From Gammaproteobacteria bacterium (GTDB lineage Bacteria > Pseudomonadota > Gammaproteobacteria > Steroidobacterales > Woeseiaceae): a stretch of 64,000 nt of DNA. Of this stretch, positions 10,070-31,840 are shown in pieces. Below the pieces are notes generated by a model, which did no database searches, had not been told where the DNA came from, and worked only from the letters and a program-made list of their open reading frames with translations. The position numbers and the translations under genes are program-made. Location of the stretch: NCBI GenBank assembly GCA_029863125.1, contig JAOTWB010000003.1, forward strand, positions 1-64,000, written 5' to 3'. How positions within the stretch are numbered: the stretch's first letter is position 1; each line of letters starts with the position of its first letter.

Positions 10070-10309
10070 ACCATGTCTCCAGCAGCACTAACGAAATTGC
10101 CAAAGACACCCAATGCGCTCATCGCGACGACGATGAGATATCGTGTTGGCAGTCCCGCTATCGTAGGAGAGACCCTTAGACCGGAGACTTTGCGGCGCTG
10201 TCTTTCGACAGGTGTGCCTTTGTCAAACGAGACGTCATCGTTGCACAGTAAGGTAGTCTGTGCAATGAATCGACGTTAGCGAAATATATTCTGTTAAATT
10301 CAACTACGT

Positions 10310-27589: not shown

Positions 27590-28498
27590 ATGTTTATAGC
27601 CAGGCTCCGAAGGACGGCGATCGTCGCAGCGCTTGTCATCAGCGGCACATTGCTCTATGCCTGCGGCTCATCGGATCAGGATACGGCTGCACGTGACCAG
27701 GCCGCCGCCCGTGCCAATGTCGACGCCATGACGAGGGAACACGCCGAGGATACGGCTGCTCCCAGCCCCGCCGCAGAGATTCCACCGGAACGAGCCGTGA
27801 TTTCGGAGACTCTGCCTTACGCGGAGCTAGGCGACCAGCTGGTTTACGGTTACTTCGTTGCGCCGTCGGACATGTTCGAGCCCCTGCCGGCCGTGATCAT
27901 GATTCACGAGTGGTGGGGACTGAATGACAATATTCGCGCAATGGCGGATCGCCTCGCGGGCGAGGGATACATCGTTCTCGCGGTTGACCTGTACGGTGGC
28001 AAAGTTGCCGGGAATAGCGCGGAGGCTCGCGAATTGATGCTCTCGGTCGTCGAAGATCCCGAGTCGGCCAATGCCAACATCCGCAGCGCTTATGAATTCG
28101 TCAGCGCAACAGCCGGGGCGCCGAGAGTTGGATCACTCGGCTGGTGTTTTGGCGGAGGCTGGTCGCTGAATACGGCGCAGTTATTTCCGGACGATCTGGA
28201 CGCAACCGTTATCTACTATGGCCAGGTAACCAGCGATGAAGACAAGCTTCGCCCGATCAACAGCCCGATACTGGGCCTTTTCGCGGAGGAGGATACGGGC
28301 ATAAAAGTATCGTCAGTGAAAGCATTCGGAGAGGCGCTCAGGAACCTGCGCAAGAATCACGACATTCATGTTTACCCCGGTGTCGGCCATGCCTTCGCAA
28401 ATCCGACGGGCAACAACTACAACGAGACTGCAGCGACTGACGCCTGGCGCCGGACGCTGGAGTTCCTCGATCTTCACCTTTCTGTCGACGCTTCCTGA
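27590..28498 (+). CDS. Lipoprotein dienelactone hydrolase family protein
   Basis: A 302-aa exported hydrolase. I start it at the ATG at 27590, which has AGG nine bases upstream and gives a clean lipoprotein signal with lipobox LYAC (Cys25). A Ser/Ala/Asp-rich linker precedes the alpha/beta hydrolase domain (from about residue 75). The nucleophile region is GWCFGGGW, the general fold is confirmed by MIHEWWGLNDN, and the catalytic His is in GVGHAFANP. The protein is probably anchored in a membrane facing the periplasm. Substrate unknown. Its final 25 bases overlap the convergent gene. Confidence 0.88.
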   Translation: MFIARLRRTAIVAALVISGTLLYACGSSDQDTAARDQAAARANVDAMTREHAEDTAAPSPAAEIPPERAVISETLPYAELGDQLVYGYFVAPSDMFEPLPAVIMIHEWWGLNDNIRAMADRLAGEGYIVLAVDLYGGKVAGNSAEARELMLSVVEDPESANANIRSAYEFVSATAGAPRVGSLGWCFGGGWSLNTAQLFPDDLDATVIYYGQVTSDEDKLRPINSPILGLFAEEDTGIKVSSVKAFGEALRNLRKNHDIHVYPGVGHAFANPTGNNYNETAATDAWRRTLEFLDLHLSVDAS

Positions 28499-28992
28499 TT
28501 TTCGGCAGGCGCGCAATCGAGCCAGAGTGGTAGCACGGTACTCGCGAAATACACGGACAAACCGGTTTCGCTGCGGCACCTCAGCGATGCCTGTGCCGTT
28601 GCGACCCCTGGCACCAGCAGGCCTTCTTCATCTCCGGCCCCACCGTCAATGCAGAAATCTGCAATTGCAATCGGTGCAACCTGGTTCGCAGGCACTCTGA
28701 TGCGGACGTCAAGCGCGGCCTCGTCGCCAATTTCAGCGGGGCCAAAGTGCTTGTGCGTGTCCGCTATACTGACGGTGACAGCTTCGACATCGGCATCCGA
28801 CGGACAGTCAACTGTCGCCACCAAAGAGAATTCCAGCGAAGGCAGGCTGACTTGCTGAGGACCTTGTTTACGCGGTACCAGTTGTGCGCTGGATTCGTTC
28901 GCGCGGAGGGTCAACGGGCCGTCGGCTGCAGCGACGATCGTCGTGATGCAGAGGCACACGGCGAGTACAATTGGAACTCGTAGTCGCTTCAT
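28474..28992 (-). CDS. Hypothetical exported protein
   Basis: A 172-aa protein with a Sec signal peptide (MKRLRVPIVLAVCLCITTIVAAA) and no domain I recognise. The mature part is predicted to be mostly beta-strand with three or four cysteines (VDCPSD, DFCIDGG, LRCRSE, LDCAPA) that could form two disulphides in the periplasm. It ends inside the convergent dienelactone hydrolase gene (25-base overlap) and no other gene accompanies it on this strand. Confidence 0.65.
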   Translation of the reverse strand: MKRLRVPIVLAVCLCITTIVAAADGPLTLRANESSAQLVPRKQGPQQVSLPSLEFSLVATVDCPSDADVEAVTVSIADTHKHFGPAEIGDEAALDVRIRVPANQVAPIAIADFCIDGGAGDEEGLLVPGVATAQASLRCRSETGLSVYFASTVLPLWLDCAPAENQEASTER

Positions 28993-29315: not shown

Positions 29316-29394
29316 AAAAGAAAAGGCGCCGGAGAACTGATTTCAGGAAGTGAACCAGCGGGCCGTTCCAACACGGAGCGGTCTCCGGCGCCTT
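29316..29394 (-). terminator. Probable Rho-independent terminator of the sigma-54-driven transcript
   Basis: On the minus strand AAGGCGCCGGAGA (29394-29382) pairs perfectly with TCTCCGGCGCCTT (29335-29323), followed by a T-rich run TTTTCTTTT. The loop is long (46 bases) and itself able to fold, which is unusual for a simple terminator. On the plus strand no T-run follows the stem. Confidence 0.5.
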
Positions 29395-29534
29395 ATCAAG
29401 CAACGGCAGGGGGTGCCGCCGGACCTTCATGGTCCGTTAAGCTGGATTCCTGTCCAGCTGAGCCCGGCGCCGCCCAGCAGCTTGTAGGGGGGATATAGCT
29501 GGTGGCACACCGCCGGAGGGGATTTGTCTGCTGC
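29316..29534 (-). ncRNA. Strongly folded GC-rich segment, candidate 3'UTR or small RNA
   Basis: No convincing reading frame fills this 219-base gap, yet it is dense in self-complementary blocks: CCAGC/GCTGG (29474-29478 with 29498-29502), AGCTGGA/TCCAGCT (29440-29446, 29453-29459), CGGACC/GGTCCG (29420-29425, 29431-29436), CGGCA/TGCCG (29404-29408, 29414-29418) and a 13-bp outer stem (29323-29335 with 29382-29394). On the minus strand the last stem is followed by TTTTCTTTT, so the natural reading is the 3' part of the sigma-54-driven transcript of the 29535-29822 gene. It does not match 6S, SRP, RNase P or tmRNA as far as I can tell. Confidence 0.4.
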
Positions 29535-29822
29535 TTACTTGACCCGCGCCATCAAGGTTGAAGTAAGGACGTTCAGGTGATTATCAAGGTCGAACTTGTT
29601 TTCGGCCCTGAGTGCCTCGGCGGCATTGGCCGCTGCCTCTGTCATGGCTTCGCGTGCGCCGACAACCGCATGGTCCAGAGCTTCGCGGTCGGCGACGGCC
29701 GCGGCCTCGAATCTCTTGGGTTCGGCGCCAAATGCCGAGCCAGCAGCCCAGGTTACGCCGATCAGTACGATCAGTGCGCCGACATAGGCCAGTCGGTTTT
29801 CTACATTCCGGATCTTCATCAT
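29535..29822 (-). CDS. Small exported helical protein under a sigma-54 promoter
   Basis: A 95-aa protein from the ATG at 29822, chosen because GGGGA lies just upstream and everything before it overlaps the promoter. It has an N-terminal hydrophobic segment (LAYVGALIVLIGVTWAAGSA) with possible cleavage after AFG, leaving about 60 residues of Ala/Glu-rich sequence predicted to be one or two amphipathic helices. It may stay anchored by the uncleaved helix. No family recognised. A near-perfect -24/-12 promoter (29914-29928) lies about 90 bases upstream, and the divergent gene encodes a sigma-54 activator, so this protein is that regulator's likely target. Confidence 0.7.
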   Translation of the reverse strand: MMKIRNVENRLAYVGALIVLIGVTWAAGSAFGAEPKRFEAAAVADREALDHAVVGAREAMTEAAANAAEALRAENKFDLDNHLNVLTSTLMARVK

Positions 29823-29913
29823 CTTGTCCCCAAGCGACTGCGGCCAGCGCTGGCTGCGTCGCGATGTTGGTAATAGCGATCGGCCAAATTGCCGTTCTCT
29901 GTACTCCCGTCCT

Positions 29914-29928
29914 GCATAAGTCGTGCCA
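29914..29928 (-). promoter_or_regulatory. Sigma-54 (-24/-12) promoter
   Basis: Minus-strand sequence TGGCACGACTTATGC, from 29928 to 29914. Against the consensus TGGCACG-N4-TTGC it differs at one position, with the GG and GC elements at the required spacing. Transcription would start near 29902, about 80 bases before the ATG at 29822. The three palindromic boxes at 29975-30029 fall roughly 72-127 bases upstream of that start, the normal distance for enhancer-binding-protein sites. Confidence 0.82.
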
Positions 29929-29974: not shown

Positions 29975-30029
29975 TTACGAAAAATCGTAAATTCCGAAAA
30001 ACCGTAAGACTATTTACGAAATTTCGTAT
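29975..30029. promoter_or_regulatory. Three 16-bp palindromic boxes, probable enhancer-binding-protein sites
   Basis: Box 1 TTACGAAAAATCGTAA (29975-29990) has perfect six-base arms. Box 2 TTCCGAAAAACCGTAA (29992-30007) differs from it at two positions. Box 3 TTACGAAATTTCGTAT (30014-30029) has a perfect 14-base palindromic core. Box starts are 17 and 22 bases apart. They lie just before the regulator's ATG (30041) and upstream of the divergent sigma-54 promoter, so one array could activate the small gene and autoregulate the activator. Confidence 0.75.
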
Positions 30030-30040
30030 ATCATGCGTCG

Positions 30041-31840
30041 ATGATCACCCCCGACGACTACCAGTGGTTATTCCGTAAGGCCCCCGTCATGGCGACCTCG
30101 ATTGCCGAGGACGGCGCTTTCCTGGACGTTAATGACGCGATGCTGTCGCGCCTTGGCTACGATCGAGCCGACATGGTGGGCCACCGGCCGGAAGAATTCG
30201 CCACGCCTGAAAGCGCGCGACGTGTGCGCGAAGAACTGCGGCCTGCTTTGCGGCGAACCGGCAAGCTCGAAAACAAGCCGGTCAGTTTTGTCAGCCGTTC
30301 AGGCGAGGAGGTCGATTGTCTGGTCAACGCGCTTGTCGAGGTTGACCGCGAAGGAGAGTTCCTGCGCACGGTCGCGATGTACACGGAGATATCCGACCAG
30401 GCGCGGGCCAACCTGAAATATCGCAATCTGTATCGGTCAACGCCGGCGATGCTGCACACGGTCGACAACAAGGGATTGATTGTCACGGTAACGGATCACT
30501 GGCTGCAGAAGCTGGGCTACAAGAGAGAAGAAGTAGTCGGTCGGCCGATTACTGATTTCTTCAGCCAAGCCGATCGCAAAAAGTATGTCGACGGCGGCTT
30601 GCAGGAACTGATCAAGAAAGGCACTTTTGACAACCTGCAGCGGCAGATGATCACGAAGAAAGGCCGGGTTATCGATCTCGTGATGTCGGCAGTGCCAAAT
30701 CGCGAAAACAACAGGGACTTCGGACACATGCTCGTCGCATCGAAAGACGTGACTGAGCGCAATCGTGCGGAACGCGAATTACGCCGCACGCTTGCGGAAA
30801 ACGCCCGTTTGCGCGAGGAGCTCGAGCGCGAGCGGGATTATCTGCGCGAAGAAGTCAACGTAGCAATGAATTTCGGTCGAATTATCGGCACCAGTTCCGC
30901 TCTGCGGCGCATGCTGAAGCGCGTAGAAGCGGTCGCCGAGACGCCGGCAAACGTGCTTCTGCAAGGCGAGTCAGGAGTCGGCAAAGAACTCGTCGCCCAT
31001 GCGATCCATATCCGTTCTCCGCGGGCGGAAGGTCCCCTTGTGAAAGTCAACTGCGCGTCGATACCCAAAGAGCTATTCGAAAGCGAATTTTTCGGGCATG
31101 TGAAAGGCGCTTTTACGGGCGCGCATCGGGACCGCATAGGGAGGTTCCAGCTTGCCGACGGCGGAACATTGTTTCTCGATGAAGTAAGCGAAATTCCGCT
31201 CGAACTGCAGGGCAAGCTATTGCGCGTATTGCAGGAAAGCGAGTTCGAGCGTGTTGGCGATGATGTAACCCGTTCGGTCGACGTTCGCGTCATTGCTGCA
31301 ACCAATCGCAACCTGGAGCAGTTGATTGTTGACGGTAAATTTCGAGAAGATCTTTTTTATCGTATCAGCGTCTTTCCCGTTGAGGTTCCGCCGCTTCGAG
31401 AACGGGATGACGACGTTGTACAACTGGCACAGCACTTTCTCGAACAGACCTGCAAGGACTTCGGACGCGAGGTCCTTACCCTGACCCGTGCACAAACCGA
31501 AAATCTTCGCGCGTATCCATGGCCGGGCAACGTCCGGGAACTCAAAAACGTCATCGAGCGGGCCGTTATTCTGTCGCAAGGCAAGGTCCTGCGGCTGGAC
31601 CTGTCAATGCTGGATCTTCACACCGAGACGGATGAGGCGACCGAAACTGCGGCCGCTGGTAGTGATATCTTGACTGACAAAGAGATCAAGGACCTGCAGA
31701 AATCGAACCTCATCAAAGCGCTGGAGCAGACCAACTGGAGAGTGTCGGGCGCAGGAGGCGCGGCGGAGCTGCTTGGCGTCCGACCGACCACGCTTGCCGA
31801 CCGCGTGCGGACCTACAAAATCAAGCGGCCGTCTGCATAG
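30041..31840 (+). CDS. PAS-domain sigma-54-dependent transcriptional activator
   Basis: A 599-aa bacterial enhancer-binding protein. Two N-terminal PAS domains (about residues 8-115 and 125-240) stand where response regulators have a receiver domain, so the signal is probably a ligand, redox state or cofactor. A coiled-coil linker leads to the AAA+ domain: Walker A GESGVGKE near residue 308, the sigma-54-contacting loop GAFTGA near 355, Walker [14 protein letters not shown] near 373. The C-terminus is a Fis-type helix-turn-helix ([17 protein letters not shown]) like those of FhlA/NorR-type activators. Its three likely binding boxes lie directly upstream. No partner kinase gene is adjacent. 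The TVP38 gene follows after 19 bases. Confidence 0.95.

Follow-up and report, generated by a model that had tools for sequence, protein, structure and literature searches.

What is a run of roughly 200 densely folded, GC-rich nucleotides doing downstream of a very short gene that appears to be driven by a sigma-54 promoter? The question is raised by positions 29534–29316 on the minus strand of a 64,000-nt stretch of Woeseiaceae DNA, which as a whole is called the window here, and an earlier note had proposed that the segment is an RNA derived from the 3′ untranslated region (3′UTR) of that gene. The answer that we favor, with moderate confidence, is that the segment is a sigma-54-switched RNA whose C-run loops repress G-rich ribosome-binding sites, above all those of TonB-dependent receptors. 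The computed support consists of a conserved and covarying structure, a promoter with operators, a selected open reading frame (ORF), constant C loops, and an enrichment of receptor starts among the candidate target sites.

Locus layout and predicted transcript

The gene that diverges from the RNA (30041–31840, plus strand) encodes, by its Pfam matches, a sigma-54-dependent activator with the architecture PAS-PAS-AAA+-HTH_8; among the best 25 of its 38 NCBIfam matches, none to an equivalogue-type model reaches the cut-off of that model. Between this gene and the promoter sit three palindromic boxes, TACGnnnTTnCGTA, at 30028–30015, 30006–29993, and 29989–29976 (no strand assigned), which are aligned in 56 regions and are the putative operators of the activator. 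The promoter, TGGCACGACTTATGCA at 29928–29913 (minus strand), follows the −24/−12 pattern TGGCAC-N6-TGCA, and its spacing predicts a start near 29902, which gives a 5′ leader of 80 nt (29902–29823, minus strand) and a transcript of about 587 nt, in good agreement with the 80-base leader and the approximately 590 bases predicted in the earlier note. That note had also placed the segment behind a sigma-54 gene. The promoter is indeed of the sigma-54 type, but the gene that it serves is a small ORF of 94/95 amino acids (29822–29535, minus strand), read from the sequence and carrying an N-terminal hydrophobic, signal-like segment, and the sigma-54-related gene is the divergent activator.

The order of these elements is constant, namely the divergent PAS/sigma-54 activator, an operator pair, the −24/−12 promoter, the short ORF, and then the RNA, and among the loci listed the activator adjoins the RNA wherever the contig extends that far. 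A regular expression for the promoter matched in 51 of 59 loci, and the match usually lies exactly 112 nt upstream of the activator start; five of the other eight have TGGCAT in the alignment and three are truncated. On the other flank, most of the loci listed have a PGPGW gene and a DLH hydrolase gene; this pair does not follow the RNA in L086, L087, and L147, and the PGPGW gene was not found in L056, L064, L186, L192, and L194. A neighboring ORF of 172 amino acids (window 28477–28992, minus strand) is common to many loci and belongs to no Pfam or NCBIfam family. Elsewhere in the window, a c-di-GMP-I riboswitch lies at 10145–10228 (minus strand), with 67.8 bits, above its Rfam gathering score.

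Regarding the reach of the activator, a search for the double operator box that tolerated up to two mismatches found it at a single place in each of 10 genomes, always the RNA locus, and the reversed control pattern matched in just one of the ten (G121); the scan covered tandem boxes, so the RNA locus is the only tandem-operator target found. No sigma-70-like site was detected in front of the RNA, the single such site of the scanned region being placed elsewhere. The −24/−12 promoter and the putative upstream activator sites by which sigma-54-dependent small RNAs (sRNAs) are recognized are both present, and the RNA reads as a sigma-54-switched sRNA that, in the window, would be derived from a 3′UTR.

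Fold and covariation of the RNA

The segment 29316–29534, folded as the minus strand, has a minimum free energy of −100 kcal/mol against a mean of −79.1 (sd 4.8) for dinucleotide shuffles, i.e., a z-score of −4.38, and 0 of 200 shuffles were as low. When the first 215 nt of the element were folded in 55 RNAs, the window included and the truncated L047 left out, z was below −2 in all 55, with a median of −5.3 (30 shuffles each). The fold confirms the five self-complementary blocks and the terminal T-run that had been noticed earlier, and resolves them, all on the minus strand, into modules A/B to F. Module A/B (29517–29463) is a long-range stem A around hairpin B (29501–29478), whose loop carries the C run ATATCCCCCCTACA at 29496–29483. 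Hairpin C follows (29459–29440), with the GGA-containing loop CAGGAA, then hairpin D (29436–29420), with a loop that is ATGAA in the window and often AGGA across the genus, and hairpin E (29419–29403), with the loop CCCCC, within the most conserved stretch of the RNA; stem B and hairpins C, D, and E are backed by covariation in addition to the fold. Module F (29397–29316) is a long, branched intrinsic terminator with its stem at 29397–29320 and the tail TTTTCTTTT. The internal branch of this terminator is missing in some relatives, and a simple terminator scan of the region did not list the block, presumably because its loop exceeds the length allowed by the scan. The view that the segment holds more structure than a terminator needs is borne out, as modules A–E are superfluous to termination.

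Covariation, proposed earlier as a check, was assessed on a MAFFT alignment (A1) that is not fitted to structure, with 23 pairs named by hand from a hand-written structure and stem A kept outside the count. Covarying pairs, whose absence the note had named as refuting its proposal, were found: across 49 aligned sequences, both partners have changed in 12 of the 23 pairs, which accounts for 86 cells, and the pairs are formed in 89.6% of all cells. The covariation score of 0.255 exceeds that of shuffled alignments (0.149, sd 0.008; 0 of 500 as high), which related sequences can exceed without any structure; sliding the pair partners, a control that retains relatedness, gave at most 0.092. The aligned regions are the window and 59 loci minus four that were too short (L046, L061, L075, and L081), that is 56, of which seven were excluded here, namely L047 (truncated), L054 and L103 (insertions), and L060, L062, L079, and L102 (no hairpins C and D), so that the covariation figure omits the members without these two hairpins. 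The stems contain 82 G-U cells, with 39 of these contributed by a single pair, against 17 A-C cells; this asymmetry points to an RNA of the minus strand, and a hairpin acting as DNA was rejected on the strength of it. Hairpins A and C shift in register among the sequences, and for this reason RNAalifold did not recover them from the MAFFT alignment without structural adjustment.

Other identities for the element were also considered. It occurs as a single copy in its own genome, and a repeat or mobile element was rejected on that ground. A search of Rfam, which includes the 6C family, had likewise been suggested; it returned no family for the region at the gathering threshold, and two chance-level matches were all that appeared up to E = 5. 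As judged from sequence, the earlier interpretation of the segment as a structured RNA is supported.

Distribution, conserved loops, and the small ORF

Searched as DNA together with its flanks, the segment matched 51 of 99 sampled genomes, its own included (E ≤ 0.001); these matches comprise 50 of the 60 other genomes of the genus, against 0 of 38 genomes of other genera. The covariance model R2 rests on the hand-written structure and on 49 sequences, the window among them. Within the order, it detected the RNA in 71 of 296 genomes, i.e., 59 of the 63 listed genus genomes (own included), 11 from other genera of the family, and one labeled as another family (G222), and in 2 of 369 genomes of a class-wide sample, both of the genus; these large searches used stricter filters, by which diverged copies are missed. 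The copy in G222 (L146/L185), a genome with 6% contamination, resembles the loci of the genus: the element is present together with an activator that shares 80% identity with that of the window. A second, partial activator occurs in the same genome, and the copy is probably a binning error. Among 35 pattern matches in named genomes, 25 were strong by R2 (several being contigs of the model itself) and one was weak (L152, E 0.032); the nine that failed, from Streptomyces, Curtobacterium, and others, were taken as chance. The contigs of G023, G037, G041, G050, and G235 end inside or beside the element, and these ends were taken as assembly breaks.

The activator reaches further than the model. 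Sought in 16 genomes, 15 of them without an R2 match, it was matched in 11 at E ≤ 1e-100, and it was not matched in G050, G293, G150, G219, and G272, which include both of the small g27 genomes searched. Of the resulting loci, L185 is G222 again, L195 and L196 were unusable, and the nine usable loci from genomes without an R2 match (L186–L194) each carry one or more C-run hairpins next to the activator. Among 38 genomes from other families of the order, 12 gave an activator match (E ≤ 1e-80; a partial match, L208, was dropped), and 11 activator-orthologue loci, representing five families, retain the promoter and at least one box. In the class-wide sample, with up to three candidates per genome scored, the activator was found at E ≤ 1e-150 in 3 of 369 genomes, all of the same order.

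The feature that recurs across these loci is the C-run loop. Over the first 150 nt, CCCC-containing hairpin loops average 1.82 per RNA, against 0.19 in shuffles; the genus RNAs have two C-run loops in 45 of 55 cases and one in the other 10, and outside the genus, within the family, 19 of 19 have at least one and 15 of 19 two or more, the single loop being confined to L186, L187, L189, and L192. Each of the 74 family RNAs counted thus has at least one C-run hairpin, and the window's RNA has two, as is characteristic of C-run-loop sRNAs. Loop B has the consensus UCUCUCCCCC, of which the window's own loop lacks the UCUC part, and loop E is C4–8. In L194, whose full-length activator is the most diverged of those seen in the family (60% identity), the C-run loops number three, and the terminator contains one of these. 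Beyond the family, a C-run hairpin is present in 9 of the 11 activator-orthologue loci and was not found in L206 and L207; in L201, L203, and L204, all from family f2, one long hairpin has a loop that bears two neighboring C runs (CTCCCCCCCTCCCCCC).

The GGA loops of hairpins C and D suggest a different function, in which the RNA would titrate CsrA/RsmA, as RsmZ and CsrB do, and the C-run loops would be incidental or would kiss the GGA loops. GGA loops are indeed frequent in the genus, at 1.27 per RNA against 0.12 in shuffles, with two in 28, one in 14, and none in 13 of the 55 RNAs, so that 42 have at least one, and CsrA was found in 9 of 10 genomes. However, outside the genus, 4 of 19 family RNAs have at least one GGA loop, against 19 of 19 with a C loop; loop D of the window is itself ATGAA; L060, L062, L079, and L102 lack hairpins C and D altogether and retain their C loops, as do L079 and L102 even with the E stem replaced by a different sequence. 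Moreover, two sites are few for a sponge, and no CsrA was found in G241, a genome 94% complete that has the RNA. We regard titration of CsrA as unlikely, and since the C loops are kept where the GGA loops vanish, it is the C loops that look like the ancestral functional part.

The second conserved part of the predicted transcript is the small ORF, which is found at the aligned start in 56 of 56 genus regions (GTG in two of them, and one codon further on in L078), with lengths of 30–108 amino acids and a hydrophobic, signal-peptide-like N terminus. Its dN/dS ratios (Nei-Gojobori) are 0.03–0.57 across 19 pairs, and purifying selection of this sort is what marks a dual-function sRNA of the SgrS/SR1 kind at the sequence level. 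No Pfam or NCBIfam family includes it, and as a protein it matches 24 of the 99 sampled genomes, a count that reflects divergence, because none of the 56 aligned regions lacks an ORF; its retention in all of them therefore indicates that the peptide matters within the genus. Conservation at the DNA level is seen inside or just past the ORF in the motif CTTGA[AT]AT (window 29580–29588, minus strand), which persists in relatives whose ORF ended earlier (e.g., L053 and L063).

Could the peptide then be the product, and the RNA merely the 3′ stabilizer and terminator of its mRNA? The selection on the ORF and its presence throughout the genus would fit, but modules A–E would be superfluous, the letters of the C-run loops are constant, the RNA is matched in more than twice as many of the 99 genomes as the ORF (51 against 24), and the C loops persist where the ORF shrinks to 30 amino acids or has no ATG. 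The latter case is L200, a locus of another family. Its predicted transcript, about 170 nt long, is devoid of ATG codons, its GTG and TTG frames continue through the terminator, and its RNA has two C-run loops; no other observation speaks as strongly for the RNA as the product of importance. A mere stabilizer is, in our judgment, very unlikely. The suggestion in the earlier note that the RNA may be a main product of the switch gains support from the same conservation figures, from L200, and from the single operator place per genome.

Candidate targets and proposed function

A target pattern, GGGGGAGA-N3-9-ATG, which combines the complement of loop B with a start codon, was chosen ahead of any inspection of targets. 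In 12 genomes, 10 of the genus and two of other genera of the family, it has 51 sites, against 10 for the reversed pattern, a difference that mostly reflects ribosome binding because the G-rich sequence is itself a Shine-Dalgarno sequence. All 51 sites were translated. Thirty-two of them open an ORF of at least 60 amino acids, and 16 are starts of TonB-dependent receptors, 15 with a Plug domain and one (L243) the N-terminal part of a receptor cut by the locus end. This compares with 10 receptors among 643 sampled genes (binomial, ~5e-17), a base rate that may be understated by a receptor profile built from seed-site proteins. The other 16 ORFs are mixed and include a periplasmic binding protein, a DctQ transporter part, two cytochrome-like proteins, and an aldehyde dehydrogenase; L212, L236, L252, and L261 have no Pfam match. 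L246, where the seed match lies inside a receptor barrel gene, was excluded from the targets. Orthologous receptors of different species share the seed site (L222/L247, 77% identical; L226/L232, 72%), and the predicted duplexes of the 16 receptor sites with C-run segments from the same genome range from −17 to −24 kcal/mol.

Receptors were also counted independently of the seed. In two 400-kb sets from family genomes, G121 (evenly spaced) and G040 (one contig), a run of at least five G precedes the start in 6 of 10 receptors against 16 of 633 other genes, with receptor counts that are small and start codons chosen by script; L263, among these six, coincides with the seed site L222. For G121 alone, the figures are 3 of 4 receptors against 4 of 347 other genes, genes running off the stretch included. 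G069 and G316 have such a run before 0 of 1 receptor each, no receptor is among the sampled genes of G082 and G319, and the receptor profile found no receptor gene in the 64,000 nt of the window. Hfq is present in 10 of 10 genomes. On these sequence patterns, a TonB-receptor regulon of the RNA is plausible.

The same sites could instead be unrelated, strong ribosome-binding sites, with the RNA acting in cis or via a protein that recognizes C-run loops. This reading draws on G080, a genome of the same order with no activator match at E ≤ 1e-80, in which five or six G precede both of the 2 sampled receptors and 7 of 322 other genes. G-rich receptor sites may thus occur more widely than the C-loop RNA and may serve another RNA or purpose. 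Perhaps G080 has another C-loop RNA; its two receptor genes lie on stretches L315 and L318. Against action in cis or through a protein stand the seed, which was set in advance from loop B and yet led to receptor starts at 16 of 51 sites, and the precedents for pairing of C loops with G runs in sX13 and B11. We consider it quite improbable.

Small RNAs as outputs of sigma-54 activators are familiar from the Qrr RNAs with LuxO and from CrcZ, which differ from the Woeseiaceae RNA in having no known linked ORF and in their targets and structure. The glnA/GlnZ mRNA is also under sigma-54 control, and the CcsR RNAs have a loop motif of the CUCC type. The mechanistically nearest systems are sX13 and 6C/B11. 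In Xanthomonas, sX13 is a highly folded RNA of 115 nt near polA, with apical C-run loops of 4C, 4C, and 5C, that represses mRNAs with G-rich (4G) motifs near the translation start (PMC3771888); its C-run loops and G-rich start-site targets are like those proposed here, whereas the available text describes neither a sigma-54 promoter nor an ORF for it, and deletion of sX13 leaves the mRNA of the TonB receptor XCV3572 lower, which is opposite in sign to the effect proposed here (PMC3771888). The locus does not share the polA neighborhood of sX13, its neighbors being the activator and, where present, the PGPGW and DLH genes. In mycobacteria, 6C/B11 has two C-run loops, either of which is enough for pairing with G tracts in 5′ UTRs (PMC10470900); this RNA shares its C-run loops with ours, but it is mycobacterial, and no Rfam match to the window rises above chance.

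Other relatives in kind share single features. CcsR1–4 are four sRNAs from the 3′ UTR of ccaF1, a small-protein mRNA of Rhodobacter (PMC8625941), so that the source is alike, unlike the number of sRNAs and the host, an alphaproteobacterium. GlnZ, an Hfq-dependent sRNA with a conserved seed and the target sucA, comes from the 3′ UTR of the nitrogen-controlled glnA mRNA (PMC9731577); it shares the 3′UTR origin, and C-run loops are not mentioned in the available text. Of the Caulobacter sRNAs SisA–D and CrfA, SisA–D have the C/U-rich core UUUCCUCCCU, and SisA represses TonB-dependent receptor mRNAs (PMC12559287), but that core is single-stranded, in contrast to the capped loops of the Woeseiaceae RNA, and the bacteria and the control are different. 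In Agrobacterium, PmaR likewise acts through a C-rich loop (PMC6234868). Among the papers listed, those that mention small RNA together with Woeseia do so incidentally, as judged by title and start of abstract. What appears to be new is the combination of three features, namely a dedicated sigma-54 activator that is encoded divergently and has a single operator array, an ORF of elastic length that can be lost, and C-run loops retained across families.

In the mechanism that we propose, the PAS-domain activator would switch on a single divergent transcript, which carries the short signal-peptide/membrane ORF and ends in the structured RNA of about 200 nt, and this RNA would be retained, presumably after processing, as a stable sRNA. 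Its C-run loops B and E would then pair with runs of five or six G within Shine-Dalgarno sequences. Translation would thereby be blocked, mainly that of TonB-dependent receptors of the outer membrane, and the switch would lower receptor-mediated uptake when the signal of the activator is present. Since the exposed C runs match the ribosome-binding sites of nutrient receptors, the locus is probably a dedicated switch for lowering nutrient uptake. As a whole, the reading of a one-output switch whose real product is the C-loop RNA, with many TonB-dependent receptors lowered together by way of the G-rich ribosome-binding sites that they share and a small protein as an add-on lost in at least one lineage, is put forward tentatively. 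We are similarly cautious about the proposal that this module, comprising the one-output switch, the add-on protein, and the receptor-lowering RNA, extends from the Woeseiaceae into several other families of the order.

The Woeseiaceae are among the commonest bacteria of marine sediments. If the proposal is true, a sigma-54 switch acting on the receptor class for large nutrients would give them a single control point for uptake, and it makes testable the idea that a shared G-rich ribosome-binding site may mark a whole class of proteins for one RNA.
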